Shown here piece by piece: positions 1-35,109 of a stretch of 64,000 nt of DNA. The notes below the pieces were generated by a model, which was not told where the DNA came from, did not search any database, and saw only the letters and a program-made list of their open reading frames with translations. Position 1 is the first letter of the stretch; each line of letters starts with the position of its first letter. The stretch covers positions 2,480,001 to 2,544,000 of the forward strand of contig NZ_CP144460.1 of the NCBI RefSeq assembly GCF_040182365.1. Direction: 5' to 3'. A program made the translations under genes and the position numbers. Source of the DNA: Xanthomonas sp. 10-10. Its GTDB lineage: Bacteria > Pseudomonadota > Gammaproteobacteria > Xanthomonadales > Xanthomonadaceae.

Positions 1-1089
1 CCAGGTCTGCCGATTGCGAAAGCAGGCCAACGCATCGATGCTGGCCAGGGTTGCGGCCACTGCTGCGGCATCCCCGTCGCGGTCGATCAGCATCACCGCA
101 ATGCGCGGCCCGCCGGCATGCGCCTGTAGGCGCGCATCGATCAACGCGCGCTGCACATCGCTGGGGTGGCGCACGCCCAGCCAGGTGGCCGGCGACACCT
201 GTTCGGCCATGCCGGCGCTGCGCATCAGCGCATTGACCAGATCCACCGACTTGAACACGCGCGCCTTGTGCGGGCTGAGCGGGGCGACCCGCACTTGGCG
301 GTTGTCGCCGGTCTCGCGTCGCCAGCCGAGCTGGCGGATGCCCTGGCGCAGGTCTTCGTGGCCCTGGTCGCCGACCCCGACCTGATCGCGGCCGGCCTGG
401 CTGAACTGCGCGCTGGACACGCGGAAGTGCGTGAGCGGCCTGGCCAGAAACGCCAGGTTGCCATGGCGCAGCAGCTTGACGTAGATCGCCAGGTCGCCAA
501 CCCAGTGGATCGGCTTGCCGTTCAACATCATCAGCGCATTGCCCAGCGCCAGCAGGTCAGCGCGTCGTGCAAGCACACAGCTCGGCTCGCCGATGAAGTT
601 GATGGCGTGATCGGCCAGGAACGACACCAGCTCCGGCCCGTCGATCAGCACGTCGTCGGCGAACGGAAAGCAGGTAGCCAAGATGTCCGGCAACGGCGCA
701 CCGTCGTCGTCGATGCGCAACCGGCGCGAGGATGCCATCGCCGTGCCGGGATTGCGCTCGATCGCTTCCACCAGCTGCGCAATGCAATCGGGCTCTAGCA
801 CATCGTCGTCGTGCAGGAACTTGACGTACTCACCCTGGGCCAGGCCGATACCCTTAAGCGTACTGCCCAGCTCGCCGAGCCGGGTCGGATTGCGATGGTA
901 GCGGATCGTGAACGGCGCGCCCGCCAGCCTGGACGCCAGCAACGCCTCGATGGCGCCATCGGCATTGTCGTCGCAGATCACGAGCTCCAACGCCATGTAG
1001 GTCTGCGCCAGCACGCTGTCCAGCGCTTGCGCGAAGTAGCCTGGCTTGTAGGTCGGCATGACGATGCTGACCAAGGCTGGAGAACTCAT
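1..1089 (-). CDS. Family 2 glycosyltransferase, likely multi-domain (3' end outside window)
   Basis: The reading frame opens at ATG 1089 and runs without a stop to the window edge (363 codons visible). The N-terminus MSSPALVSIVMPTYKPGYF, followed by LELVICDDN and later FLHDDDVLEPD, is the GT-A fold signature: nucleotide-sugar binding strands and a DxD-type metal site. After about 330 residues a second GT2-like start appears (PRIAVMLIDRDGD, then a TLASIDAL-type helix), so this is probably a tandem glycosyltransferase. Large multi-domain glycosyltransferases beside fliC in Pseudomonas syringae (Fgt type) glycosylate flagellin. Transfer of sugar to flagellin here is inferred from context and from the sigma-54 promoter 67 bp upstream. 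Acceptor and donor are unknown. Confidence 0.85.
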   Translation of the reverse strand, partial: MSSPALVSIVMPTYKPGYFAQALDSVLAQTYMALELVICDDNADGAIEALLASRLAGAPFTIRYHRNPTRLGELGSTLKGIGLAQGEYVKFLHDDDVLEPDCIAQLVEAIERNPGTAMASSRRLRIDDDGAPLPDILATCFPFADDVLIDGPELVSFLADHAINFIGEPSCVLARRADLLALGNALMMLNGKPIHWVGDLAIYVKLLRHGNLAFLARPLTHFRVSSAQFSQAGRDQVGVGDQGHEDLRQGIRQLGWRRETGDNRQVRVAPLSPHKARVFKSVDLVNALMRSAGMAEQVSPATWLGVRHPSDVQRALIDARLQAHAGGPRIAVMLIDRDGDAAAVAATLASIDALACFRNRQTW

Positions 1090-1155
1090 GCAGGATCGAC
1101 CATGTTTGTTAGGGACTGATATCTGAGCGGAATCGGCGAACCGAATTCATCTTGC

Positions 1156-3037: not shown

Positions 3038-4033
3038 TCAAGCAGGCACTTCAAAAGTAGAGCTTTCGGCGTGCTTGTTGCGGTACTCGACCGGGGTCAT
3101 TCCGCCGAGCGAATCATGGGATCTTGCTTCGTTGTAGTCGATCATCCACCAGTGGGCGGCTTCGCGCACATCGTCGAGGCAGGCGAAGAAATTCAGGTCG
3201 AGCACTTCCTCGCGGAACGTGCGATTGAAGCGCTCAATGAAGGCATTCTGATTTGGCTTTCCCGGCTGGATGTACTGCAGTGCGACGCCATTCGTCTTGA
3301 GCCAGCTGGTGAACGCTTCGCCCAGGAACTCGGGGCCGTTGTCCGAGCGCACCACCTGCGGCAAGCCATGATCGCGTTTGATCTGCTCGAACACACGCAC
3401 AAGCCGTTGCGAGTTGATCGAGGTGTCAACCTCGATGTGCAGCGCCTCGCGATTGAAGTCATCCACCACGTTGAAGGTGCGAAAGCGTCGTCCGCATGCC
3501 AGCGCATCGCTCATGAAGTCGACCGACCAGACCGTGTCTGGCAGCCTCGGCACGTAGAGCGGCACCCGCTCACGCTTGGGAAGGCGACGCTTTGCAGCGC
3601 GGCGTAGGTTGAGCTTCATGGCCTTGTAAACGCGATAGATGCGTTTGGGATTCCAGCCTGGTTGCTGCTTGCGAAGGTAGTCGCTGCACTTCCAGAAGCC
3701 ACGACTGGGGTGCGCTTCAACGTAACGCGCGATCTCGGCAATCAGCTCGGCATCGCGCACCGTCCAGTCCAGAGGCGGTGCGTACCAGGCGGCACGCGAC
3801 AGCCCGACGCATGCACAGGACCGGCGCAACGGCCGCGCGTGGACCTCGATAAGGAACCGCACCGCCTCGCGCTTACGCGCCGGCCCTAGAGTTTTTTTGC
3901 GATCAGGTCCTTCATTGCCGCGTTGTCGAGCGCCAACTCGGCGTACATCCGTTTGAGCTTGGCGTTCTCGGACTCGAGCTCCTTGACCCGCAGCAGCTCG
4001 GACGCCTCCAAGCCGCCGTACTTGCTCTTCCAC
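3038..4033 (-). CDS. IS3-family transposase OrfB (DDE integrase domain)
   Basis: OrfB carries the retroviral-type integrase core of IS3 transposases: VWSVDFMSDAL supplies the first Asp, VRSDNGPEF the second, and NAFIERFNRTFREEVL the Glu. An HTH_21-like segment (SRAAWYAPP to YLRKQQPGWN) precedes it. The frame is open to 4033, but the first ~50 residues (MEEQVRRLGGVRAAAG) read like an out-of-frame shadow of OrfA. The real product is most likely the OrfAB fusion made by -1 frameshifting at the A7 run on the minus strand, after which the peptide continues KKTLGPARKREAVRF. The protein moves the IS and has no host role. Confidence 0.9.
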   Translation of the reverse strand: MEEQVRRLGGVRAAAGQGARVRERQAQTDVRRVGARQRGNEGPDRKKTLGPARKREAVRFLIEVHARPLRRSCACVGLSRAAWYAPPLDWTVRDAELIAEIARYVEAHPSRGFWKCSDYLRKQQPGWNPKRIYRVYKAMKLNLRRAAKRRLPKRERVPLYVPRLPDTVWSVDFMSDALACGRRFRTFNVVDDFNREALHIEVDTSINSQRLVRVFEQIKRDHGLPQVVRSDNGPEFLGEAFTSWLKTNGVALQYIQPGKPNQNAFIERFNRTFREEVLDLNFFACLDDVREAAHWWMIDYNEARSHDSLGGMTPVEYRNKHAESSTFEVPA

Positions 4034-4152
4034 TGGTAATAGGTCGCCGTGCTGATGCCGACTTGGCGACAGATGTCTTTGACTGGAACGCCTGCGTCAG
4101 CCTGCTTGAGCGTGGCGATGATCTGTGTCTCGGTGAACTTCGATGTGCGCAT
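3886..4152 (-). CDS. IS3-family transposase OrfA (HTH protein)
   Basis: This 88-residue protein begins MRTSKFTETQIIATLKQAD and has the HTH_8 domain of IS3 OrfA (KDICRQVGISTATYYQWKSK, residues about 25-44). A leucine-zipper-like coiled coil follows (LLRVKELESENAKLKRMYAEL). OrfA binds the IS ends and dimerises with OrfAB. It ends IAKKL-stop right at the A7 slippery run and overlaps OrfB by 148 bp, the normal IS3 arrangement for programmed -1 frameshifting. Confidence 0.9.
   Translation of the reverse strand: MRTSKFTETQIIATLKQADAGVPVKDICRQVGISTATYYQWKSKYGGLEASELLRVKELESENAKLKRMYAELALDNAAMKDLIAKKL
3892..3898 (-). other. Programmed -1 frameshift site of the IS3 element
   Basis: Seven consecutive A residues on the minus strand (T7 on the plus strand) sit four codons before the OrfA stop. 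A one-base slip back joins LIAKK to KTLGPARK of OrfB. A homopolymeric A7 is a common IS3 slippery sequence. Frameshifting efficiency and any stimulatory structure are not visible. Confidence 0.7.
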
Positions 4153-4462: not shown

Positions 4463-6283
4463 TCAAACATTTGCGACAAGCGTACGTTGCGACGCAACGG
4501 TATTGATGAAGACTGCATCCACCACGCGGCAGTAACCTTGTGCATCGACGCTGGCGGAAAGGCAGGTATGCAACTGGAACCCTTGCTGTTGCATGAAAGA
4601 GACCAATTCCTGACAAGTGTAAGAGCCGTGGAAACGCTCGATCACCGACAGCTCCAGCATGACATAGGTCATCTTGCGCAACGACTCGACCGCGCCCCGC
4701 AGGATCTGCAGTTCGTAGCCCTCTGTATCGATCTTCAACAAAGTAGTGCGGTCGGTTTCGTGCAACTGTGCGAAGACATCATCCAGGCGATGCAATTCCA
4801 CCGGCAGGCGGATGATGCGTTCGGCGCCGGTGTCGCGTAGCGAGCTGCTTTCCAGCAGCGAGCTGAGCACCGGTGCGTCTTCGCGATAGTTTATAACTGT
4901 CTGTTCTTTGCGGTCTGACAAACCGATCTGCAGATACTGACTGCTGGGGAACTGCTGACGTAGAGTCTCCACCTGCGCAGCGAACAGCGTGACCGGCTCG
5001 ATGAAGATCACGTGGGCCGGGCTTAGGTTGCGATACAGATCTGGCGTGCCCTCGGCAACGCCGACATCGATGATGGTGTGCACCGTTTCAAGCAGTTGCA
5101 GGTTGCGCCATTTCATGAAGCCGGAAGCCGTGGCGGCGGTGCACTGCATCGGCACTTGCCTATAGCCAATCCATTGGCCAAGAGTGCCCTTGGACGCATC
5201 TGCCGGTAATAGACTACCGTGTGCTAACGCAAGGTTTTCTTCGTCTAACACCAAGTCCGCCGCTCGCGTGTTGGCTTGCGCGGGCAGGGCTTGGCAACGC
5301 AGTGCGGGATAGGCATTGTTGTGTTGCGCAACAAACGTCTGCAATGCCTGATCCTCTGCTTCCAGCAGTATGTAGCGCAATGCTGCCGGTGCTACGATGG
5401 TGCCGGACAGCGCGGTGCATAGCGATGCTGGCACTTCGCGCCAGGCCACGCAGCCGAATTGCTGGGCGAGCGCTAGCGTCAGCTTCATGGCCTGTTCGTC
5501 TGCGTGGTGTTCGATCACTACAAAACGTCCTGTCTGCGCGTGCCACTGTAACCAGGTGCTCAAGAGCGCATTGATCTGCTGGGGTGCAAAGCCATTGTGG
5601 AGGAACCAGCTCATGCTCCAATCGACCGCCCGCCACTGTGGTGGAAGGCGCACGACCGCAACCGTGCTCAGGCCTAGCGCGAGAGCGGCAGCGAGGCGAT
5701 GTGCGCCGTTGAGTAGTCGCCCGTCGCCGTCGAGCGGAATTGCACAATGATCCTGGAAGCCACGTTCGCGCATGTCCTCGATCAGCTTGGCGAATGCGAG
5801 TTCGTAATCGGCCACGCAGCATTTGCCTAACGCGTCGGGCTCCCGGCCTGCGGTGCGCTGCTGGATGTGTTGACGGTAGATGCCGACGGCATCGATTGTT
5901 TTGGCTGACGAATGGCCTAGATAGTGCTGCGCAAACTGCAGTTTTGCCGCGATATCCAGGCGGTCCGACGTCCACAGCGTCAGCGGTGCTACTTGTTCCA
6001 CACTCTGTGGCTGCAACAGGCAAGCTGCCTCAAGCGGCGCATTGTTGCTGCCGAGCCGGTGTGCAGTGACATAACTGTCTGCGGCCTCTTGTGGGGCGGC
6101 ATCGCGCAGAACGCGTGCAAGTTCCAGGTGCCACTGGGGATTCTCCGGCTCCAGCGCAATCGCTTGCGTTAGCCGTCTCTGTGCGCGGCCTACCAACCCC
6201 TGTTTTAGCAACAACATCGCAGCGTGCGCGTGCGCGTACGCGCTGAGCGTGTCGTCGCAACGTCCTGCCTGATAAGCCATCAT
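4463..6283 (-). CDS. TPR-like / FkbM-family methyltransferase
   Basis: The 606-residue product has three parts. Residues about 10-95 look like TPR helices (LVGRAQRRLTQAIALEPENP). Residues about 178-205 contain CAIPLDGDGRLLNGAHRLAA, resembling the DGxHR motif of ParB/sulfiredoxin-fold domains. A C-terminal FkbM methyltransferase domain starts near 408 (HTIIDVGVAEGTPDLY) with the family motif LLKIDTEGYELQILRGA. TPR-methyltransferase fusions are common in flagellin glycan islands, where they may bind or trim glycan intermediates. The start overlaps the preceding gene's stop (ATGA), so the two are translationally coupled. A role in O-methylating the flagellar glycan is inferred; the middle domain's role is unknown. 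Confidence 0.8.
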   Translation of the reverse strand: MMAYQAGRCDDTLSAYAHAHAAMLLLKQGLVGRAQRRLTQAIALEPENPQWHLELARVLRDAAPQEAADSYVTAHRLGSNNAPLEAACLLQPQSVEQVAPLTLWTSDRLDIAAKLQFAQHYLGHSSAKTIDAVGIYRQHIQQRTAGREPDALGKCCVADYELAFAKLIEDMRERGFQDHCAIPLDGDGRLLNGAHRLAAALALGLSTVAVVRLPPQWRAVDWSMSWFLHNGFAPQQINALLSTWLQWHAQTGRFVVIEHHADEQAMKLTLALAQQFGCVAWREVPASLCTALSGTIVAPAALRYILLEAEDQALQTFVAQHNNAYPALRCQALPAQANTRAADLVLDEENLALAHGSLLPADASKGTLGQWIGYRQVPMQCTAATASGFMKWRNLQLLETVHTIIDVGVAEGTPDLYRNLSPAHVIFIEPVTLFAAQVETLRQQFPSSQYLQIGLSDRKEQTVINYREDAPVLSSLLESSSLRDTGAERIIRLPVELHRLDDVFAQLHETDRTTLLKIDTEGYELQILRGAVESLRKMTYVMLELSVIERFHGSYTCQELVSFMQQQGFQLHTCLSASVDAQGYCRVVDAVFINTVASQRTLVANV

Positions 6284-8160
6284 GCCGCTGGTTCCTCAAT
6301 CCTGTCGAATACGTAGAACGCGCGTTCGATGATGCCGTCGTCCTTGAGCAGCCCACGCGAATGGACTTGGAACCCTGCAGCCAGCACGTGCTCGATATTG
6401 GCGAAGAAGTCCTTGTCGTTGGTGGCCAAGTTGTTGCTTTCCAGGATAAGTCGCCCGCCCGGCGCCAGTAATCCATGTAGCACCTTCGCGTACTGCGCAA
6501 TGGGTATGCCGATCCACACATGCACTGCAAAGGAGAAGACCACATCGTATCGGCGCCGGTCGTCAACCATGAACTCTGCAAAGCCGCTGCATTCGAATTG
6601 GCAGTTGTCGACGCGGCATGCCGCAGCGAGGCGGCGCGCGATGTCGATCAGCGCTTGGGTATGGTCTATTCCGTGGTAGCTACGTATCACCGGCGCCAGT
6701 GCCAGCCCGAACATTCCGATATTGCAACCGATATCCAACACGCTGGCCTGTTCGGGCAACCAGCTGTCCACTCGGTATTCGGCAAGGCGCCGCAACGTCG
6801 GCCGCTGCCCCGAGAGTTGCCAACCCTCGTGTCCTTGATAGAGCTGGCCACGGCCGAACTGCAGCGGCTCGGCAGCGATCTGCTGCTGGATGGCGTGCAG
6901 GCACGCCTGCCACTGTGCATCATCTGGCGGTGTGCTGTTTAACTTCAGGTTCGAGGGTGGCAGAGCTTGGCATGACGATATCGCAGGGAGTGCCCGTTCC
7001 AGCACTTCGACACGCTCATGCAACCGCGCCAAGCCGTTGCGCGCGACCGTCTCGTGAGCAAGCGCACGTTCCCAGGTCAGTACTTTGGAATAATCCCACC
7101 ATTGATCCAGCGTTTCTCGTGCATGGTGATGAATCAGTGTCGGTAGCTCGCTCAGTCGTGGCGGTTCACACTCGGGGGCTAGCACCTGATGCCAGAATCC
7201 GGGAGACAGGAAAGACTTAAAATGGATCTGCTGATACGCCTGCGTATCTGCCTCAGAGGCGGCAAGGGGCACGAAGGGCTTGAACAATGTATGCACCACC
7301 TTGTCGAACCAAGTTGCCTCCTGAAGCAATCCCGACGAGATACCGATCAATTCGACGTCGTCCTGCGCGCTCAGGATCTGGTAAGCATTCTGCGAGCTGA
7401 TCACCGCACGCTGCCCGGTGATGCGCTCTAACGTGGCACGCTCTTGCTGCGCGAAATCACCGGCAAAAGGATGCGGCTTGTAGAGCAGGCGTCGCGACGC
7501 GCACAACTGCTGCAGCCGCTCGGCAAAATCCTCGCAGCGCAGCGAGCGTCCGTCTTCAGCCAGCAAGGACGCATCGTAGGGCGCTTGGCCGATAAACAGC
7601 ATCGCTCCACCCAGATCGGTGAAGGTGTAGCCACGCTCGTCCTCCATCCGCTTTTGATGCATGCGGATATTGGCAGCCAGCACTGCCGCCTCAAGGCGTA
7701 GCTCTTCGTCCAGGACGGTGTGCGCGGCGATGCGTTCTGCCAGTACTGAATCGTTGCATTGCAGAGCGATGTAGAGGTCGCGCCCAAAACGAAGCGGCGA
7801 AACACGGATGTCGATAAAGGTGATGCGCTGCTGATGACATAACGCGATCAGCCAAGGCGGCATTTCGAAGGACAGAAGCAGATCAGCGCCAAGCAGGTGC
7901 TGCAGCAGATAGGCATTGGCCTGCTCGTTGATCTGGTGATAGCTGGAGGACCAGGTGCCGACGTCTCCCAGTGCCAGTTGCTGAAATCTGGCGAGATCGA
8001 AACCATCACCTCTCTTGCTTGGCGCCGAAGCCCGTGGAACGGTGCCGATATCGATGCCGCATCCTTGACGGATCGGTTCGCGGATCAAATCAAAGAAGCC
8101 TTCTGGAAAGGCGCGCGCCTGCCTGAGCAAATCTGGCAGCAGGACAATTGTTGTCTTCAT
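6280..8160 (-). CDS. Glycosyltransferase-like / SAM methyltransferase fusion protein
   Basis: I choose ATG 8160 (MKTTIVLLPDLLRQ) rather than the longest frame (8349). The upstream 63 codons read unlike protein, and the sigma-54 promoter at 8261-8277 lies inside them. The 626-residue protein has an N-terminal half resembling capsule/GT-B type transferases (RRLLYKPHPFAGD; SSQNAYQILSAQDDVELIG). Its C-terminal half is a class I SAM methyltransferase: ASVLDIGCNIGMFGL at about 472-486, then FSFAVHVWIG and LLAPGGRLILESNN. Fusion of a transferase and a methyltransferase suggests that one protein builds and caps a glycan. It is the first gene of a unit that continues into the TPR/FkbM gene with a 4-bp overlap. 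Substrates are unknown. Confidence 0.75.
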   Translation of the reverse strand: MKTTIVLLPDLLRQARAFPEGFFDLIREPIRQGCGIDIGTVPRASAPSKRGDGFDLARFQQLALGDVGTWSSSYHQINEQANAYLLQHLLGADLLLSFEMPPWLIALCHQQRITFIDIRVSPLRFGRDLYIALQCNDSVLAERIAAHTVLDEELRLEAAVLAANIRMHQKRMEDERGYTFTDLGGAMLFIGQAPYDASLLAEDGRSLRCEDFAERLQQLCASRRLLYKPHPFAGDFAQQERATLERITGQRAVISSQNAYQILSAQDDVELIGISSGLLQEATWFDKVVHTLFKPFVPLAASEADTQAYQQIHFKSFLSPGFWHQVLAPECEPPRLSELPTLIHHHARETLDQWWDYSKVLTWERALAHETVARNGLARLHERVEVLERALPAISSCQALPPSNLKLNSTPPDDAQWQACLHAIQQQIAAEPLQFGRGQLYQGHEGWQLSGQRPTLRRLAEYRVDSWLPEQASVLDIGCNIGMFGLALAPVIRSYHGIDHTQALIDIARRLAAACRVDNCQFECSGFAEFMVDDRRRYDVVFSFAVHVWIGIPIAQYAKVLHGLLAPGGRLILESNNLATNDKDFFANIEHVLAAGFQVHSRGLLKDDGIIERAFYVFDRIEEPAA

Positions 8161-8663: not shown

Positions 8664-9281
8664 CTACCGCAATATGTGTGCGCCGTCCGGCATCAGTGCG
8701 TCAAAAAACGAGCGGTCGGGCAATGTCGGCGGCAGCTTTGCGCCAAGCAACCACTCGCAGTTCTTGCCGACCTTGCTCCCCGGGGCGGCGAAACTACCGG
8801 CTCCAAGCGTGGAGCCTGATCCTATATGCACATGATCGGCCAGGATGACGCCTGCGCGCAGGCTCACGCAGGTTCCAAGCCTGACGTCATGGTCCAGAAT
8901 GACTTGCCGATCCAGCCAGCTGCCCATGCCAACGACACACCCCTTGGCAATATTGCAGCCGGCGCCGACAAAGACATTACCCATCAAGCGCACGCTGTTT
9001 TCGACGATGGCGCTTGGCGACACCAGGTTGTAGGTGCGATACCCGGCCAGCCTGACATCTGCGATCAGTTTCTGACGTGCGAAATTGACCGCACGCTCGT
9101 CGAGCGCCACAAACACCTCGACCTCTTCAGGGCTGTACGCGCTGCAGAGCAGGTCACGGTCGAAGTTGTGGGCATCGGCACTAGGCAACGCAATACGCAC
9201 ACACCCGGGCAGAAGCTGTTCTGCAAGTTCAAAGGCCTCTTCGAGCGCTCGTCCATGCCCTGCAACGACGCGTAAGGTCAC
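8664..9281 (-). CDS. Left-handed beta-helix acyltransferase (NeuD/PglD-like)
   Basis: The C-terminal two thirds is a hexapeptide-repeat left-handed beta-helix (MGNVFVGAGCNIAKGCVVG, VILADHVHIGSGSTLGAG), the fold of sugar O- and N-acyltransferases. The N-terminal part is a degenerate PglD-type domain without the usual glycine loop. I choose GTG 9281, not the longer frame to 9314: GTG overlaps the preceding TGA (GTGA) and follows a GGAGAG ribosome site by about 6 bases. Length is 205 residues. It is the last gene of the vioA-like operon. It probably transfers an acetyl or ACP-borne acyl group to a sugar amine or hydroxyl; the donor is unknown. Confidence 0.75.
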   Translation of the reverse strand: MTLRVVAGHGRALEEAFELAEQLLPGCVRIALPSADAHNFDRDLLCSAYSPEEVEVFVALDERAVNFARQKLIADVRLAGYRTYNLVSPSAIVENSVRLMGNVFVGAGCNIAKGCVVGMGSWLDRQVILDHDVRLGTCVSLRAGVILADHVHIGSGSTLGAGSFAAPGSKVGKNCEWLLGAKLPPTLPDRSFFDALMPDGAHILR

Positions 9282-10420
9282 TGTTGCTCTCCCAGCACAT
9301 GCGTGCGGTACCAAAGATGCTGTTTGACCAGATGTTCTTCGTAATCACCATGTATAAACTGTCGTGATTGTGGGCCGATCCCACTTTGCAGTGTCTCCAA
9401 CACCACAGTGTCTTCCGCAATTACAGTGCGTTCAACGCGAATCAAGCTGCTCAGCAAGGCAGTGAAATTTGTGCGTTGCTCCTTGCGCCGAGCCGTCATC
9501 ATCCATAGGTGGTAGTCGGTTTCACCTGGCGCGACTGGCTCGTATTGCTGCAGCAAAAAATGCTCGCCACGTACGCTGCAAAAGTTCACGTTGGGGTAGA
9601 TAAACCAATTGTAGTAAATCTGTGCGCTTCCGTAGGTGTTGCAAAGTTCACGAAACCAGGACGTGTACTCCTGCAACGGTGCCCTGGTCGGATAACTAAG
9701 TGCGCTCAGCGCCGGCGCTCGGGCCTGTCGTAGTAGTTCCTTCACCATCGATGGCTCATCACTGGATGCGCCAGTCGATTTCACAGATGTGGTCATCGCC
9801 GGAAGGAACGTTTTTGGATGCACGAACGGAACATGGTTGTAGTCCTTAACGTTCTCCATGTTGAGCTTCCAGTTGTAGCGGACTCGGTGGCGGCTGTGGA
9901 TGACCTGCGTGTCCAGGTGCGAGGACGCGTCGCGCAATTGGGCCAGATACGCCTCGGAAAACTGCTCCTGCAGCGCGATGGGGCGTTCGGACAGGTTGAC
10001 GAACAGCAGTTGGCCCACTTCCTCGACATGCAGCTTGTGCAAACAGATGCGTGCACGTTCTTCGTCGTCGAATCGGAACAGGTCCTGATTCGGTATGGCG
10101 CGCAGTTCGCCCTCGGGGCCGAACGACCAAGCGTGGTAAGGACATACCATCGGTCGTTGGCCCGTATTGCTGGTCTGGATCGCGGAGAGCCTGTGCGGGC
10201 ATTGATTGACGAAGGCGCGGATGCCGGCCGTCGTGCGTTGCACCAGCACCGGTACGCCAGCGATCGTTCGAGTGAAGAACTGGTTGCGCTCGCGTACCAT
10301 CGAGCTGAAGCCGGCGAAGTTCCATAGCCGGCCAAAGATCCGTTCGCGCTCCAGTGCAAAGGTCTCAACGCTGGTGTAGTGCTGCGGGTCCAACGCGTGG
10401 CGGGTCATGCAGGCCACCAT
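9278..10420 (-). CDS. Rieske [2Fe-2S] non-haem iron oxygenase, alpha-subunit type
   Basis: The 380-residue product shows both metal centres of ring-hydroxylating-type oxygenases. The Rieske cluster is CPH (C74, H76) plus CPYH (C93, H96). The mononuclear iron motif is N190-x2-D193-x2-H196-x4-H201. Such enzymes hydroxylate, desaturate or demethylate organic substrates and need a reductase, which is not encoded nearby. ATG 10408 is an equally possible start. It sits between two sugar acyltransferases in an operon with ACP and KASIII, so its substrate is more likely a sugar or an ACP-bound acyl chain than an aromatic pollutant. That assignment is inference. Confidence 0.85.
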   Translation of the reverse strand: MVACMTRHALDPQHYTSVETFALERERIFGRLWNFAGFSSMVRERNQFFTRTIAGVPVLVQRTTAGIRAFVNQCPHRLSAIQTSNTGQRPMVCPYHAWSFGPEGELRAIPNQDLFRFDDEERARICLHKLHVEEVGQLLFVNLSERPIALQEQFSEAYLAQLRDASSHLDTQVIHSRHRVRYNWKLNMENVKDYNHVPFVHPKTFLPAMTTSVKSTGASSDEPSMVKELLRQARAPALSALSYPTRAPLQEYTSWFRELCNTYGSAQIYYNWFIYPNVNFCSVRGEHFLLQQYEPVAPGETDYHLWMMTARRKEQRTNFTALLSSLIRVERTVIAEDTVVLETLQSGIGPQSRQFIHGDYEEHLVKQHLWYRTHVLGEQQ

Positions 10421-10448
10421 GTCGCGGCAACCGGCAGCATCGGCGGAT

Positions 10449-11096
10449 TCATGCCTGCGCTCGCGGCTTGTTGAAAATCGAGCGAGCCGGGTTGCCGATT
10501 ACGGTCTGGCCAGCAGGCACATCGTTGAACACCACCGAGCCCATGCCGACCACAGCACCTTCCCCAATGGTGATGCCGCGTGCGATCAACGCTCCAGTAT
10601 TGATCACCGCACCGTTGCCGACGGTGACGTTGCCGGCCAGCACGGAGCGTGGCCCGATATGCACATAGTCTCCAATGATGACATCGTGCCCGATCAAGGT
10701 GTCCTGGTCTATGAAACCATATCCGCCGATGCGGCAGTCCACGCCGCAATTCACGTCGTAACCGAAGTAGGTAGGGCCGTAGATCGTGCGCGCGCCAAGT
10801 GTGCAGCGCGTGCGCACTGAAATGAACTGCGCACCTTTCGCCAACAGCGGCGCGACCTGCCGTTCCCGCATCGCGGGGTCGCCGACGGCGGCGACAAAAA
10901 TCAGATCGGACGCCGGGACGAAGCTCTGTGGATCGCCAAGCCAGGGGTAATACAGCGCCGGCGAGACGGCGTCAGCGCCGCGTTCGTCGAGAAAACCGGC
11001 AATGATCCAATCGATCCCGTGGCTGTAATCCACCTGCAGCTGTGCAAGCACTTGTCGCCCTAGTCCGCCAGCGCCCACGATGACAACACGTTTCAT
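10449..11096 (-). CDS. NeuD/PglD/VioB-like sugar N- or O-acyltransferase
   Basis: ATG 11096 gives a 215-residue protein beginning MKRVVIVGAGGLGRQVLAQL, the nucleotide-sugar-binding glycine loop of PglD/NeuD. Hexapeptide repeats follow (TLIGHDVIIGDYVHIGPRS, GALIARGITIGEGAVVGMGS), ending PAGQTVIGNPARSIF. An AAGGA ribosome site lies 7 bases upstream. The family N-acetylates UDP- or dTDP-4-amino-4,6-dideoxy sugars, or O-acetylates sialic acids. Next to a VioA-like aminotransferase it is the best candidate to acylate the 4-amino group (VioB role). Whether it uses acetyl-CoA or the local acyl-ACP cannot be read from sequence. Confidence 0.8.
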   Translation of the reverse strand: MKRVVIVGAGGLGRQVLAQLQVDYSHGIDWIIAGFLDERGADAVSPALYYPWLGDPQSFVPASDLIFVAAVGDPAMRERQVAPLLAKGAQFISVRTRCTLGARTIYGPTYFGYDVNCGVDCRIGGYGFIDQDTLIGHDVIIGDYVHIGPRSVLAGNVTVGNGAVINTGALIARGITIGEGAVVGMGSVVFNDVPAGQTVIGNPARSIFNKPRAQA

Positions 11097-11110
11097 GATC
11101 AGTTCCTTAC

Positions 11111-11878
11111 TCAGCTGATGGTCAATCCGCCGTCCATCACCAGGCTGGTGCCGGTGATCCAACGGCTAGCGCCCGACAGCAGGAAAATAGCAGCGTTGGC
11201 CACGTCGTCAGGTTGCCCGAAGCCCAACGGATAGTTGTCGCGTTCTGCTTCCAGCGAGCCGACGACTTGCGCGGTGGCATCCAATAACGGTGTATCGACC
11301 AACGCAGGTGAGAGGCAATTGACGCGGATGCGGCGCTTGATGACTTCCATCGCAAGACAACGCGAATATGCGATCAGCGCCGCCTTGGAAGCAGAGTACG
11401 CGCCGACCCCAGCAACACCGATATGCGCGGCGATGGATGCAATGAACAGAATCGCGCCGTCGGCAGCAATCAGATTGCGCTTTAGGAGGGCCTGGGTAAG
11501 CAGCACCGGCGCATCGACATTGGTCGACTGCACCTCGCGCAGGTGCGCTTCGGTGACCATGCGTGCCGGACACAGCCGCGAGATGCCTGCGCTATGCACC
11601 ACGCCTTGCAGTGATGCACTCAATGCCGCCACCAGCGCATCGCGCTCGGATGCAACGGTCAGATCGGCGAGCACGGCCTGGTGCGGCAGTTCCGAAATGG
11701 CTTGCAGCTCGCTCAACGTCGCTTCCAGACGCTGCGCGTCGCGTCCGGTAACGATCAGCTCGCTGCCCATACGTGCGCAACTTAACGCAATCGCTTTACC
11801 CAGCCCCGAACTGGCACCGCTCACCAGAACGCGCTTGCCGGTCAGGCTGAAGGGATTGAAAGGAACTTGATCGTTCAC
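11111..11878 (-). CDS. SDR-family oxidoreductase (FabG-like)
   Basis: This is a classical 255-residue short-chain dehydrogenase/reductase. It has the cofactor loop GASSGLG (21-27), S148, and the YSASK active site with Y161 and K165. The C-terminus SRWITGTSLVMDGGLTIS is typical of FabG-type enzymes. Between an acyltransferase and the KASIII/ACP pair it probably reduces a 3-ketoacyl-ACP to 3-hydroxyacyl-ACP; reduction of a keto-sugar is an alternative. It lies 14 bp upstream of the NeuD-like gene in one operon. Confidence 0.85.
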   Translation of the reverse strand: MNDQVPFNPFSLTGKRVLVSGASSGLGKAIALSCARMGSELIVTGRDAQRLEATLSELQAISELPHQAVLADLTVASERDALVAALSASLQGVVHSAGISRLCPARMVTEAHLREVQSTNVDAPVLLTQALLKRNLIAADGAILFIASIAAHIGVAGVGAYSASKAALIAYSRCLAMEVIKRRIRVNCLSPALVDTPLLDATAQVVGSLEAERDNYPLGFGQPDDVANAAIFLLSGASRWITGTSLVMDGGLTIS

Positions 11879-11924
11879 GTTTTGTCGTTGTCTGGTTGTT
11901 TTGAAAAAAGCACAAATTCCGAGC

Positions 11925-12965
11925 TCAGGTTTCGATCAAATCAGGAAACACCGCATCGTTGATGTCCAATATGCAGGTGCCCCACGACAGACCGATGCCG
12001 AAGCCACACAGCAGCACGCGCTTGGGGCCGGATTCCAGTTCCTTGTTGATGCGTGCGGTCATGGTCACCGGCAGCGAAGCGCCGCTGGTATTGCCGAAGT
12101 CGCGCAGCGTGGAAGGCACCTTCTCCACCGGCAGGCCGAGCTTTTTGCGGATGGTTTCGTTGATCATGCGGTTGGCCTGGTGGAACACGAAGTAATCGAT
12201 GTCCTCCTTGGCCACGCCGGTGTAGTCGAGCAGTTTCTGCACTGCCGGCGGGATGCGCTGGGTGGAGAAACTCAGCACGGCCACGCCATCGAGTTGCAGA
12301 TCCACACCGCGCTTCCACTGGCCATCTGCTTCCTCGCGGTAGGGTACAAGGTGCTGTATGCCGACCGGTTCGCGGTGTCCGCCTACCGGCAGGATGATCG
12401 CGCGATAGCCACTGCCATCGCTGTTGAGGTCGAAATGCATCGGCGGCGCGTCGGCTCTGAACTCCAACGCAGTGGCGGTGCCGGAATCGGAAAAGATCGG
12501 GTCTTCCAGATTGGCGCTGCGGTCGCCGACCAGCAGCAGGCCCTTCTTGACGCCGCCGGCGGCGATCATCGAGCCCAGCAGGTTGATGCCGAACGGGTAG
12601 GCCGAACAGCCCAGGTTAACGTCGAAGGCGACCGTGGCATGCGACAGCCCCAGTCGATCCTGCAGGATGATGGCGGTGGCCGGGATCGGATAATCCGGCG
12701 ACTGGGTCACCACGATCAGCGCATCGATCTCCTCGCGCTTCCACTGCAGCTTCTCAAGCAGCACTTCGGTCGCATCGAAGGCCATGTCGGAGAAACACTG
12801 CCACTCCGAAGCCATGCGGCGCGTCTCGATGCCGATGTTGCGCACCAGGCGCTCGCGCTCGGAGCGGATCTGCGGCCGGCAGTCGGTGAGATTGGACACG
12901 ACCCGCTTCGGCACGCAGGTCGCCATGCCGGCAAAGCGGACGTTGTGCAGCGTGGAGGTCGGCAT
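11925..12965 (-). CDS. 3-oxoacyl-ACP synthase III (KASIII/FabH-like)
   Basis: Start ATG 12965 (MPTSTLHNVRFAGMATCVPK) gives 346 residues, and GAGG lies just upstream. The thiolase-fold catalytic triad is present: C120 in VNLGCSAYPFG, H262 in VFHQANRM and N292 in FGNTSGAS. KASIII enzymes condense an acyl-CoA with malonyl-ACP. This is an accessory copy outside a fatty-acid operon, paired with its own ACP 5 bp upstream. It probably makes the short 3-ketoacyl chain that the SDR reduces and an acyltransferase attaches to the amino sugar, as proposed for the modified viosamine of P. syringae flagellin. Confidence 0.85.
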   Translation of the reverse strand: MPTSTLHNVRFAGMATCVPKRVVSNLTDCRPQIRSERERLVRNIGIETRRMASEWQCFSDMAFDATEVLLEKLQWKREEIDALIVVTQSPDYPIPATAIILQDRLGLSHATVAFDVNLGCSAYPFGINLLGSMIAAGGVKKGLLLVGDRSANLEDPIFSDSGTATALEFRADAPPMHFDLNSDGSGYRAIILPVGGHREPVGIQHLVPYREEADGQWKRGVDLQLDGVAVLSFSTQRIPPAVQKLLDYTGVAKEDIDYFVFHQANRMINETIRKKLGLPVEKVPSTLRDFGNTSGASLPVTMTARINKELESGPKRVLLCGFGIGLSWGTCILDINDAVFPDLIET

Positions 12966-12970
12966 GGTAC

Positions 12971-13195
12971 TTACGCCTCGGTCAGTTTGTAGAGATCGCC
13001 GACGGTGACGGCTGCAGTGAGATCTTCGCCGGTGATGGTCTTGCTGTATTCCATGTCGAACATGACGATCACACCCAGCGCTGCCAGCGAGTCCCACTCC
13101 GGCAATTCCAGTAGCACGGTGTCCAGTGTGACCTCCACCGGCTCCTGGAAGTCGGTGGCGGAGAGGAAGTTCTCGATAAATGTTGCCTGGGTCAT
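12971..13195 (-). CDS. Acyl carrier protein (dedicated)
   Basis: This is a 74-residue acidic protein with the phosphopantetheine site in EWDSLAALGVIVMFD (Ser36). Length and helix pattern match ACPs. It stops 5 bp before the KASIII start. A private ACP in a glycan operon implies that the acyl decoration is assembled on a carrier rather than taken only from acetyl-CoA. Confidence 0.88.
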   Translation of the reverse strand: MTQATFIENFLSATDFQEPVEVTLDTVLLELPEWDSLAALGVIVMFDMEYSKTITGEDLTAAVTVGDLYKLTEA

Positions 13196-13259
13196 GCGAG
13201 CTCGCCTGGTTGCCTGTTGAAGAGATGGGAGTCTGAAATGCAGGTTCAGCGTGGTGCGA

Positions 13260-14369
13260 TCATGTTGCCTTTGCGCCGGCGATCAGGTCGGCAATGGTAT
13301 CGACCTGTTCGCTGGTCAAACCGGGAAAGATCGGCAGGCACAATACTTGGGCGGCCACCGAGCGCGCTACCGGCAGCCGCGCCGGTGCCGACGAGGGCAG
13401 GGCGCGATACATCGGGAAGTCGCTGATCAACGGATAGAAATACCGTCGTGCCAGGATGCCGTGCTCGCGCATCAATTGGTACAGCGCATCGCGCGCCAGC
13501 GGGTAGTCGTCCTGCACCAGGATCGGAAAATACGCATGATTGGCGCTGGAATGCTGCGGTGCTGCGACGCAGCGGATGCCACGCACCTCGCTCAATCGTT
13601 GCCGGTATTGCGCGTCGATGGCGCGGCGCTGCGCAATGGCCTCGTCGATATGCTTGAGCTGCAACAGGCCGAATGCCGCGCTGATTTCGTTCATTTTGCC
13701 GTTGATGCCCGGTGCCACCACCGTGGTTTCGTCGACGAAGCCGAAATTCTTCAGATGCCCGATGCGTTGGTAGGTTCTTTCGTCCGGGCACACGATGGCG
13801 CCGCCCTCGAAGGTGTTGAATACCTTGGTGGCATGAAAGCTCAACACGCTCAGGTCGCCGTGGCGCAGGATCGATCCGCCGGCATCGCGCACGCCAAACG
13901 CATGCGCTGCGTCGTAGATCACCTTGAGGTTGTAGATGTCGGCGATGCGGGTGATGGCAGTGGTATCGCACGCGGTGCCATAGCAATGCACCGGCATGAT
14001 GGCGGTGGTCTGCGGGGTGATGGCCGCCTCGATCTTGGACGGGTCCATGTTGAGCGTCACCGGGTCGATATCCACGAATACCGGAGTGATGCTCTTCCAC
14101 AGCAACGAGTGCGCCGTGGCCACGAAGGAGTAGGGGGTGGTGATGACTTCGCCGGTGATGCGCAGCGCCTGCAGGGCGGTGATCAACGCGGTAGTGCCGT
14201 TGGTCAGCAGGGCCAGATGCGGCACTCCCAGGTAGTCGCACAGCGCCTGCTCGAGCGCACGGTGCATCTCCCCCCCGTTGCTGACGATGCGACTGGTCCA
14301 GATCCGTTCCAGGTACGGCAGAAAGTCTTCCAGCGGCGGCAGCAGCGGACTGGTGACGGGGATGGGCAT
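13260..14369 (-). CDS. vioA: DegT/DnrJ/EryC1 sugar aminotransferase (VioA-like)
   Basis: ATG 14369 (MPIPVTSPLLPPLEDF) gives 369 residues; the longer frame adds an unlikely leader that overlaps the sigma-54 promoter. PLP-binding features are D153 in IYDAAHAFG and the Schiff-base lysine K182 in SFHATKVFNTFEGG. The family aminates NDP-keto-6-deoxy sugars. VioA makes dTDP-viosamine (4-amino-4,6-dideoxyglucose), the sugar found modified on P. syringae flagellin. Regiochemistry (3- or 4-amino) cannot be decided here, so the symbol is by analogy. It is the first gene of the operon running down to 8664, directly behind a sigma-54 promoter. Confidence 0.8.
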   Translation of the reverse strand: MPIPVTSPLLPPLEDFLPYLERIWTSRIVSNGGEMHRALEQALCDYLGVPHLALLTNGTTALITALQALRITGEVITTPYSFVATAHSLLWKSITPVFVDIDPVTLNMDPSKIEAAITPQTTAIMPVHCYGTACDTTAITRIADIYNLKVIYDAAHAFGVRDAGGSILRHGDLSVLSFHATKVFNTFEGGAIVCPDERTYQRIGHLKNFGFVDETTVVAPGINGKMNEISAAFGLLQLKHIDEAIAQRRAIDAQYRQRLSEVRGIRCVAAPQHSSANHAYFPILVQDDYPLARDALYQLMREHGILARRYFYPLISDFPMYRALPSSAPARLPVARSVAAQVLCLPIFPGLTSEQVDTIADLIAGAKAT

Positions 14370-14442: not shown

Positions 14443-14459
14443 AGCAAGCGCTATGCCAG
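14443..14459 (-). promoter_or_regulatory. Sigma-54 promoter of the vioA-acp-KASIII-SDR operon
   Basis: The minus strand reads TGGCATAGCGCTTGCTT, with GG-N10-GC spacing and five of six consensus bases in each box. It lies between the fleQ stop and the vioA start, giving a leader of about 63 nt. Confidence 0.75.
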
Positions 14460-14485: not shown

Positions 14486-15970
14486 TCAGTTCGCCAGCTC
14501 GGTCTGCTCGCGGTCGATGCCGTACTTGCGCAGCTTCTCCACCAGCGTGGTGCGGCGCAGGCCGAGTAACTGGGCTGCATGCGCAACCACCCCCTGGGTG
14601 CGTTCCAGCGCCTCGTTGATGAGGGCCAGCTCGATGTTGGCCATATGGCCACGCAGGTCGATGCCATCGTCGGGCAGGCTGGCAGCAGAGACCGGTTCGG
14701 CGTCGGCGGTCTTGGGTTGCAGCGTCACCACATTGCTAGGCAAGGCGTTGACGTCGGCAGGCGCCGCCACCAGGGCCGGCTCCGGCGGCAACTCGACCGG
14801 AATGGACGATGCGAAGTCGCCGCGATAGCGCGCCGGAAGGTCCTGTACGCGCACCAACCCACCCGGATGCAACACCGCCAGGCGCTCCACCAGGTTGGTC
14901 AGTTCGCGCACGTTGCCCGGCCAGTCGTAGCTGCGCAGCGCCTGCAGCGCCTCATCGGCAAAGCGCACTTCGCCGCGACCGGTACGCGCCAGCTGGCCGG
15001 CGATCGTCTGCACCAGGCTGGCAAGATCGTCGACGCGCTCGCGCAACGCCGGCATTTCGATCGGGAACACGTTGAGGCGATAGAACAGGTCCTCACGGAA
15101 CTGCCCGTCGCTGATGCGGGTTTCCAGATTGCGGTGGGTGGCGGCGATCACGCGCACATTGCAGCGGATGGTCTGGCCGCCGCCAACACGCTCGAAACTG
15201 CGCTCCTGCAGCACGCGCAGCAACTTCACCTGCATCGGCAGGCTCATGTCGCCGATTTCGTCGAGCAGCAGGGTACCGCCCTCGGCCATTTCGAAGCGGC
15301 CCTTGCGGGTGGTCAGCGCACCGGTGAAGGCGCCTTTTTCGTGGCCGAACAGTTCGCTTTCCAGCAGGTCCGGCGGGATCGCGCCGCAGTTGATCGCCAC
15401 GAACGGCCCATCACGGCGGGGCGAGTGCTGGTGGATGGCGCGCGCGACGACCTCCTTGCCGGTGCCCGATTCGCCCAGCACCAGCACCGTGGTGTCGAAC
15501 GCTGCCACCTGGTCGATCAGCCGGCGCAGGCGGGTGACCGCCTCGCTGTTGCCGGTCGGCCCGGTGTCCTGTTGCACGCCGGCCTGGTGCTCGGCATCCA
15601 GGCGCTTGAGGCTTGCGCGGCGCAGCAGCGCTTCCAGCTGCGCGTGGCGCAGCGGCGTGTCCAGCGCCCAGACATTGGCTTCGTGCAGGCCATGGGTCTG
15701 CGCAAACGTGGTCGGGCTGCCTTCCATCAACAGTACCGGCGGCGGCAGCTTGGCATCGGCCAGCCAGTCGAAGAATTTGTCGGCCTGCGCGGCGTCCTGC
15801 GCCGAGCCCACCATCACCGCCATCCACTCATCGTGGCGGTGACGGCCAGGATTGATGTCGGCGCCGTCGGTGACCCAGCGGGGATTGAAGTCCATGAACT
15901 CGAGCAGCGAGACGGTGCGCTCGGCGCGCACGGCGTCACTGTCGATCAACAGAATGCGGGACTCACTCAT
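14486..15970 (-). CDS. fleQ: FleQ, sigma-54-dependent flagellar master regulator
   Basis: The 494-residue enhancer-binding protein has a FleQ-type N-terminal receiver-like domain (1-120, MSESRILLIDSDAV). A AAA+ domain follows, with Walker A GESGTGKE (166-173), the sigma-54 contact loop GAFTGA (213-218) and Walker B GGTLLLDEIGD. A Fis-type helix-turn-helix ends the protein (VVAHAAQLLGLRRTTLVEKL). FleQ activates RpoN flagellar promoters and is antagonised by c-di-GMP in related species. Its start overlaps the end of vemR by 8 bp, forming an rpoN2-vemR-fleQ operon. Six GG-N10-GC promoters in this window are its likely targets. Confidence 0.95.
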   Translation of the reverse strand: MSESRILLIDSDAVRAERTVSLLEFMDFNPRWVTDGADINPGRHRHDEWMAVMVGSAQDAAQADKFFDWLADAKLPPPVLLMEGSPTTFAQTHGLHEANVWALDTPLRHAQLEALLRRASLKRLDAEHQAGVQQDTGPTGNSEAVTRLRRLIDQVAAFDTTVLVLGESGTGKEVVARAIHQHSPRRDGPFVAINCGAIPPDLLESELFGHEKGAFTGALTTRKGRFEMAEGGTLLLDEIGDMSLPMQVKLLRVLQERSFERVGGGQTIRCNVRVIAATHRNLETRISDGQFREDLFYRLNVFPIEMPALRERVDDLASLVQTIAGQLARTGRGEVRFADEALQALRSYDWPGNVRELTNLVERLAVLHPGGLVRVQDLPARYRGDFASSIPVELPPEPALVAAPADVNALPSNVVTLQPKTADAEPVSAASLPDDGIDLRGHMANIELALINEALERTQGVVAHAAQLLGLRRTTLVEKLRKYGIDREQTELAN

Positions 15971-34778: not shown

Positions 34779-35109
34779 GGTGCTCTCCCGCGAAGTGTTG
34801 CCAGGGAGGAAGCAATGTTTGTGCCAATCGAGGTGGCGCGGGCCGCAGAACGCGGAGAACGATCGGCGCTGCCGACGAACGGCAACTTGCCGTCCGGAAG
34901 ATGCGATGGAGCCCTGTCCACGAAGTTTGCTTCAATCAAGCGCGGCAAGCCGGAAGGTTCGGCCTTCCCGGAGGCGCGGTCTGGCGTCGCAGGTGCCGCC
35001 TCGAGGGCGCGTCGACGCACCGACCCAATTTATCCGCGGCGGTGTGCTTGCAGCCCGGCGCAGCGCGCTGTCCTGCGATCGGCGCCGATCCGGCGGCCGA
35101 GCAACTTGC
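34779..35109. other. Spacer between flgB and cheV
   Basis: The 331-bp gap holds the sigma-54 promoter of flgB (listed separately) at its flgB-proximal end. The remaining roughly 280 bp, including the end of the convergently placed leader, shows no gene or clear terminator; overlapping open frames there look accidental. Confidence 0.5.
34810..34828 (-). promoter_or_regulatory. Sigma-54 promoter of the flgB operon
   Basis: The minus strand reads TTGGCACAAACATTGCTT, matching the consensus TGGCAC-N5-TTGCW exactly with GG-N10-GC. Confidence 0.92.

Follow-up and report, generated by a model that had tools for sequence, protein, structure and literature searches.

A Rieske oxygenase in a flagellin amino-sugar acylation island of Xanthomonas sp. 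10-10 and its possible action on the N-acyl chain

Introduction

What would a Rieske oxygenase do among genes for the acylation of an amino sugar? The question is raised by a 64-kb stretch of Xanthomonas sp. 10-10 (hereafter the window; bases 2480001-2544000 of one 5.17 Mb contig), where a sugar aminotransferase, an acyl carrier protein (ACP), a beta-ketoacyl-ACP synthase III (KASIII), a FabG-like short-chain dehydrogenase/reductase (SDR), a NeuD/VioB-type acyltransferase, a Rieske oxygenase and a second beta-helix protein are encoded in a row. All seven genes are real: as a first-pass annotation had described, they form one row at 8664-14369, each with an open frame and all read from the minus strand. 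The operon almost certainly belongs to a flagellin amino-sugar acylation island, and we are equally confident that the Rieske protein acts in this glycan pathway. The flagellar sugar that the operon supplies is very probably an unusual one, an acylated amino sugar. As to its substrate, we infer that the acyl chain is the probable one.

The account that we favour has, as a whole, a rough probability of 0.56. The operon would be the sugar-donor part of an RpoN/FleQ-controlled flagellin glycosylation island. Its aminotransferase would yield dTDP-4-amino-4,6-dideoxyglucose (Qui4N, viosamine), KASIII and the SDR would build a short beta-keto or beta-hydroxyacyl chain on the private ACP, and the VioB/NeuD enzyme would transfer this chain to the 4-amino group. 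The Rieske protein, helped by its beta-helix partner and by a reductase encoded at some other site in the genome, would oxidise the N-acyl chain, most simply by hydroxylation, and methyltransferases and a GT2 protein would complete and transfer the sugar. The sugar identity and the N-acylation are assigned by analogy with named relatives. The features concerned are given below; residue counts for the aminotransferase, ACP, KASIII, SDR and Rieske protein, here and later, cover those relatives from loci with KASIII that scored above our cut-offs.

14486..15970, minus strand: FleQ, sigma-54 activator adjoining the operon (PF06490 FleQ and Sigma54_activat)
14443..14458, minus strand: sigma-54 (-24/-12) promoter match TGGCATAGCGCTTGCT upstream of the aminotransferase gene (exact match)
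13260..14369, minus strand: sugar 4-aminotransferase, VioA/DesI-like, DegT/DnrJ/EryC1 family (Pfam/NCBIfam, PDB relatives; pyridoxal-phosphate lysine kept in 46/46)
12971..13195, minus strand: putative private ACP (weak AcpM match; serine of the DSL motif in the window copy, kept in 54/54 relatives)
11925..12974, minus strand: FabH-type KASIII (Pfam/NCBIfam; catalytic Cys, His and Asn 66/66 each)
11111..11878, minus strand: FabG-like SDR (Pfam/NCBIfam, residue alignment)
10449..11096, minus strand: NeuD/VioB-type sugar N-acyltransferase (TIGR03570; VioB 7txp as top PDB match; catalytic His and GNPA motif retained)
9278..10408, minus strand: predicted Rieske non-heme iron oxygenase, Rieske and Ring_hydroxyl_A domains (Pfam, predicted structure, conserved ligands)
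8664..9281, minus strand: left-handed beta-helix, NeuD-fold hexapeptide protein, partner of the Rieske gene (predicted structure, alignment; the GTG start is our choice)

The operon and its flagellar setting

The closest PDB sequence relatives point to a 4-amino sugar. For the aminotransferase the best is 2po3 (5.9e-66), given as a "4-dehydrase" in the match table and which we take to be CalH, and for the acyltransferase it is VioB (7txp, 1.3e-22), crystallised with TDP-4-amino-4,6-dideoxy-D-glucose. The ACP gave no Pfam match at 0.001 and one weak NCBIfam match (AcpM, 21 of 146 bits). In the SDRs, Tyr is kept in 87/87, Lys in 86/87 and Ser in 68/87; alanine stands at the catalytic serine position in the other 19. 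The acyltransferases keep the catalytic His in 41/45 (38/45 in a second alignment) and the C-terminal GNPA motif almost entirely (G 45, N 40, P 45 and A 44 of 45). The active sites had been called intact from the window alone, and its catalytic residues indeed recur among the relatives of the aminotransferase, ACP, KASIII, SDR and Rieske protein.

The genes fliC, fliD, fliS, rpoN and fleQ precede the operon on the same strand, and the island sits between fleQ and the GT2 gene, inside the flagellar cluster. The sigma-54 site listed above is a perfect match to TGGCAYRN4TTGCW, about 74 bases upstream of the aminotransferase ATG; the window holds two such exact sites against 0.10 expected, the other being at 34811-34826 on the minus strand. 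The same pattern was sought before 40 related aminotransferase genes, with the window itself and minus-strand genes excluded. It was found exactly in 18 of the 20 that belong to Xanthomonas or Pseudoxanthomonas, in 17 of them 91-104 bases ahead of where the domain begins, and the remaining 20 rows show 1 to 4 mismatches. Because fleQ and rpoN adjoin, the -24/-12 site is exact and the PDB relatives are 2po3 and VioB, the role in flagellin amino-sugar acylation that had been suggested before is well supported. By analogy with named relatives, the operon may be controlled by RpoN and FleQ.

The Rieske oxygenase and its distribution

The four ligands of the Rieske cluster (C-X-H ... C-X2-H) are kept in 63/63 relatives each. 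At the iron site the two His are found in 63/63 and the Asp in 61/63, with a further acidic residue, D in 43/63 or E in 20/63; we take these to be the 2-His-1-carboxylate ligands and the bridging acidic residue. The model is of high confidence (predicted local distance difference test, pLDDT, 93.9) and matches 3vca with a Foldseek E of 2.8e-24. The window protein is therefore predicted, from its ligands and modelled fold, to be a Rieske non-heme iron oxygenase with oxygenase activity. No ring-hydroxylase beta subunit was matched by Pfam among the ten proteins scanned, and no electron-supplying reductase lies within the operon, as had been remarked earlier. Four FAD_binding_6 proteins are encoded in the whole genome, two of which add NAD and Fer2 domains and two of which do not.

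The gene is unevenly distributed. In the family sample, 30/297 genomes, its own included, match at E 1e-40 or better, in 2/54 genera; of the 17 genomes sampled from the window's own genus, three give no match at that level. At 1e-30, 4/398 genomes of the phylum sample match, again with its own, and at 1e-10, 47/274 of the class sample, where, its own genome apart, none exceeds 35% identity. Within Xanthomonas two Rieske types occupy the same place, that of the window (63-78%) and another (33-36%).

Gene-neighbourhood conservation of the oxygenase, which had been put forward as a check, was examined in 40 stretches fetched as holding a Rieske match, one of which (L110) was filler. The order aminotransferase-ACP-KASIII-SDR(-SDR)-NeuD-Rieske lies beside fleQ in 29/40. 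The beta-helix gene follows in 28 of these 29, L098 stopping at a contig edge, and two SDRs are present in 28 of the 29, only L072 having one, like the window.

The wider sample comprised named genomes, of which the best 80 of 593 matching stretches (577 confirmed) were kept and are called the named loci. KASIII-linked Rieske loci are mostly from Pseudomonadota but also from Flavobacterium, and lie in viosamine-like and some nonulosonic-acid-like clusters. Outside Xanthomonas, flagellar genes occur in the stretches of L113, L118, L121, L124, L141, L142 and L159, and in L113, L121 and L141 the island stands between flgL and fliC. One locus scored with three Rieske genes, apparently L142, has one gene read as two open reading frames.

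The beta-helix partner

The beta-helix gene overlaps the Rieske gene by four bases (GTGA). Its product, modelled with a pLDDT of 95.4, folds like the PglB acetyltransferase domain, PerB and PglD (template-modelling score about 0.73-0.82), which agrees with the beta-helix part of the earlier description as a second beta-helix acyltransferase. The acyltransferase role itself is doubtful, because the column of the catalytic His holds His in only 4/46 partners, against 41/45 in NeuD. The window and P. californiensis copies are among those retaining it, and catalytic activity of the window's own copy is possible.

The GNPA motif has a role in acyl-donor binding. At its place the partners have N in 4/46, G is not among the five commonest letters, and Pro is aligned in 34/46. 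The retained Pro weighs against over-reading the loss of the motif, as does the uncertain alignment of so degenerate a beta-helix. Similarly, His at other columns, in up to 21/46 partners, weighs against over-reading the loss of the catalytic His. One Asn and one Arg of the N-terminal domain are invariant (46/46).

The partner may be mainly non-catalytic, at somewhat less than an even chance. A more specific and rather unlikely proposal is that it is a NeuD paralogue which has largely lost acyl transfer, keeps its N-terminal domain and now serves as a dedicated subunit by which the acylated sugar nucleotide is offered to the Rieske protein. The two, both taken as trimers, would then perhaps form a symmetric trimer-on-trimer complex. 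If so, the Rieske-partner cassette, sometimes present twice in one island, would diversify surface glycans by oxidation.

Substrate of the Rieske oxygenase

We place the oxidation on the acyl chain mainly because the sugar genes vary while KASIII and SDR stay with the Rieske gene. A gene cluster with NeuB as its representative is common to L159, L165, L166 and L172, a cytidylyltransferase cluster occurs in L131, L164-L167 and L172, and the order in five Flavobacterium loci is ACP-KASIII-SDR-Rieske-KASIII-NeuD. Among the named loci KASIII is present in 54 and KASIII with ACP in 53. The acyl chain seems the likelier substrate because KASIII occurs in 54/59 loci with a Rieske score of at least 304 bits and in 0/21 lower-scoring ones. 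The five exceptions are L120 and L143 (both with the Rieske gene at a contig end), L163 (a 4.9 kb contig), L147 and L160, the last two having the Rieske-beta-helix pair alone.

The Asticcacaulis stretches L164-L167 and L172 have Rieske-KASIII-SDR near the cytidylyltransferase, with NeuB-type genes in L165, L166 and L172, and a PhyH-type dioxygenase cluster is found in L162 and L164-L167; this suggests oxidised acyl groups on nonulosonic acids.

Several points weigh against this assignment. The KASIII count used a hidden Markov model trained on the same loci, which makes the score gap a descriptive one, and only the best 80 of the 593 stretches entered it. Pairwise distances over 27 single-Rieske loci, the window included, show that the Rieske protein tracks KASIII poorly (r = 0.225; ACP 0.373) and NeuD (0.710) and the beta-helix protein (0.929) far better; for KASIII and ACP, r is 0.807. 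The correlation with NeuD and the partner would also suit an enzyme that acts on the finished sugar, either on the ring or on the sugar nucleotide once acylated. Sequence-profile searches rank aromatic dioxygenase alpha chains (7yls/8h2t, 9o71, 9jp5) first among PDB entries, with CntA next, so the relatives of the Rieske protein, demethylases among the fold matches, leave its chemistry unfixed.

The best-surviving alternative, which we consider improbable but worth weighing, is that the enzyme hydroxylates the sugar ring, for example at the 6-deoxy carbon, and that the site is then acylated by the beta-helix protein or methylated by an FkbM enzyme. The co-inheritance of Rieske and beta-helix proteins speaks for it, since r is 0.926 with KASIII held constant and 0/500 permutations are as high; so does an FkbM-type cluster (representative PF05050) in 29/61 loci examined. 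However, the family follows KASIII and SDR across clusters that differ in their sugar genes and in part include a NeuB-type gene; five Flavobacterium loci and the Asticcacaulis loci have no beta-helix partner beside the Rieske gene; and from the GNPA motif the partner has lost G and N.

Removal of an O- or N-methyl group, or oxidation of an amine, is less probable still. It would resemble the C-N-cleaving stachydrine demethylase (3vca/4qup) and CntA, Rieske monooxygenases which, with 3n0q, are the nearest folds by Foldseek; GbcA is the top NCBIfam match (92 of 670 bits, far under the cut-off), and methyltransferases are present in the island. Identity to those structures is nevertheless only about 20-23%, the entry titles name other substrates, and the profile ranks aromatic dioxygenases higher. 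For demethylation, it would also be odd to add and then strip a methyl group within one pathway.

That the Rieske gene is a mere passenger is very improbable. In favour of this reading, the published P. syringae island works without one (PMC3927599) and some genomes of the genus have no match, as described above; against it, the ligands are retained in 61-63 of 63, the position recurs in many genera and the gene is co-inherited with its neighbours. Action on the N-acyl chain thus remains our preferred account, and the earlier expectation of an oxidised sugar or acyl group is supported as the likely Rieske product.

Exchange of the Rieske-partner pair

The Rieske tree contains 92 rows (those below 200 bits or 250 residues were excluded) and carries long-branch warnings. 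One branch (100/99) splits 69 linked or high-scoring proteins from 23 others. The window protein groups with those of X. phaseoli, a Pseudomonadaceae bin and P. californiensis (100/93), and three Xanthomonas of the window's Rieske type join next (100/100). Such a grouping across Xanthomonadaceae and Pseudomonadaceae points to exchange between families. For L113, identity to the window is 53-83% in the operon, against 27-30% for flgK/flgL, 49-51% for fliC and 36% for fliD.

Two Rieske genes of different clades stand in one island in L117, L118, L119, L144 and L146. Tandem duplication was rejected for these because the copies are in different clades; in L172 both copies are in one clade, and tandem duplication is not rejected there. 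Together with the strong correlation between Rieske and beta-helix proteins, the two-clade islands imply that the pair is an exchangeable cassette beside a steadier ACP-KASIII core. The adjacency rule used to count pairs (37 loci) undercounts them, since L114 and L118 also have the pair. Such exchange would also yield strain-specific flagellin decoration.

In Xanthomonas sp. 3793 (L086:8724-11672 / L117), two Rieske-beta-helix pairs of different clades are stacked in one island; fleQ and rpoN of the window are 100% and 99% identical to those of this strain. Genomes of the X. albilineans group (L104-L108, L147) have an extra pair unaccompanied by the other operon genes, and the Rieske protein of L147 groups in the tree with the second one of L119, L146 and L144.

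Comparison with known systems

The operon context is already known, and the role of the Rieske protein in it is newly proposed. The closest system is the a-type island of P. aeruginosa PAK and PA103, which has the same orfA-orfG gene order within a flagellar cluster: Table 1 of PMC4020848 gives orfA as aminotransferase, orfB as ACP, orfC as 3-oxoacyl-ACP, orfD as reductase, orfE as transferase, orfF as 2Fe-2S ferredoxin and orfG as acetyltransferase. The likeness of orfF rests on that annotation rather than on sequence, and the PAK island lies in the flgL-fliC interval, whereas the window operon adjoins fleQ. P. aeruginosa PA7 (L121) has Rieske and beta-helix genes in this island, where an additional FkbM gene separates NeuD from Rieske; identity to the window is 82% for KASIII, 78% for ACP, 69% for the aminotransferase, 52% for the SDR, 46% for NeuD, 37% for the Rieske protein and 28% for the beta-helix protein.

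The gigX island of X. oryzae was reportedly described by Yu et al. in 2018. According to the accounts in PMC8657755 (a review) and PMC6859632, gigX1-gigX10 form a ten-gene island that determines flagellin glycosylation and is under RpoN2/FleQ regulation, both of which are predicted for the window operon too. Among the genes of the Xanthomonas flagellar cluster, Table 5 of PMC3826837 lists XCV2007, a "Rieske 2Fe-2S family protein", with an ortholog or putative ortholog in 12/15 genomes, including X. oryzae PXO99A (putative). We infer that the X. oryzae Rieske gene is one of the gigX genes. The earlier statement that no described flagellin glycan route has such an enzyme does not hold in view of orfF (PMC4020848) and XCV2007.

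In P. syringae, the viosamine island as published (vioA, vioM, vioT, vioS, vioB, vioR and acp) makes N-(3-hydroxy-1-oxobutyl)-2-O-methylviosamine (PMC3927599). The window has equivalents of VioA, VioS (KASIII), VioR (SDR), ACP and VioB, by family and PDB relatives, so that the likeness drawn in the first-pass annotation stands for these five. P. syringae was nonetheless set aside as the closest model, since that published list holds neither a Rieske nor a second beta-helix gene and the PAK order is identical to that of the window. The structure of the whole PAK flagellin glycan was stated to be unsolved in 2011 (PMC3927599).

Among the papers listed in our literature searches, we found no role or substrate of a Rieske protein in flagellin or amino-sugar glycans, nor any description of the family-wide Rieske-KASIII link or of the degenerate partner, both of which are apparently new. 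CMAH, the CMP-Neu5Ac hydroxylase of animals, is a Rieske enzyme. As its published abstracts state, it makes N-glycolylneuraminic acid, and this N-acyl hydroxylation on a nucleotide sugar is a chemical precedent for our favoured mechanism. If the 2Fe-2S gene of these islands is the conserved, acyl-linked Rieske gene with its partner, one oxygen on the N-acyl group is predicted for flagellin in Xanthomonas and P. aeruginosa, among other bacteria, which would provide a bacterial counterpart, in logic, to CMAH.

Neighbouring genes

Beyond 8664 the island continues on the minus strand with three further genes.

6280..8157, minus strand: protein with a C-terminal methyltransferase domain, its N-terminal part without a Pfam match (Pfam)
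4463..6283, minus strand: TPR and FkbM methyltransferase protein (Pfam)
1..1116, minus strand: N-terminal part of a GT2 glycosyltransferase running past the left window edge (full protein 1184 aa)

The GT2 protein (L196:9563-13117) is a candidate transferase for the finished sugar; P. syringae VioT is of similar size, 1173 aa (PMC3927599). A two-ORF (open reading frame) insertion element with HTH_Tnp_1 and rve domains lies at 3038-4152 on the minus strand, with the TPR-FkbM gene on one side and the following FkbM gene on the other, and is presumably IS3-like. That FkbM gene, at 1513-2823 on the plus strand, is in the opposite orientation, and the local GC content is 45-47%, compared with 59-67% in the flagellar part at 14-24 kb.

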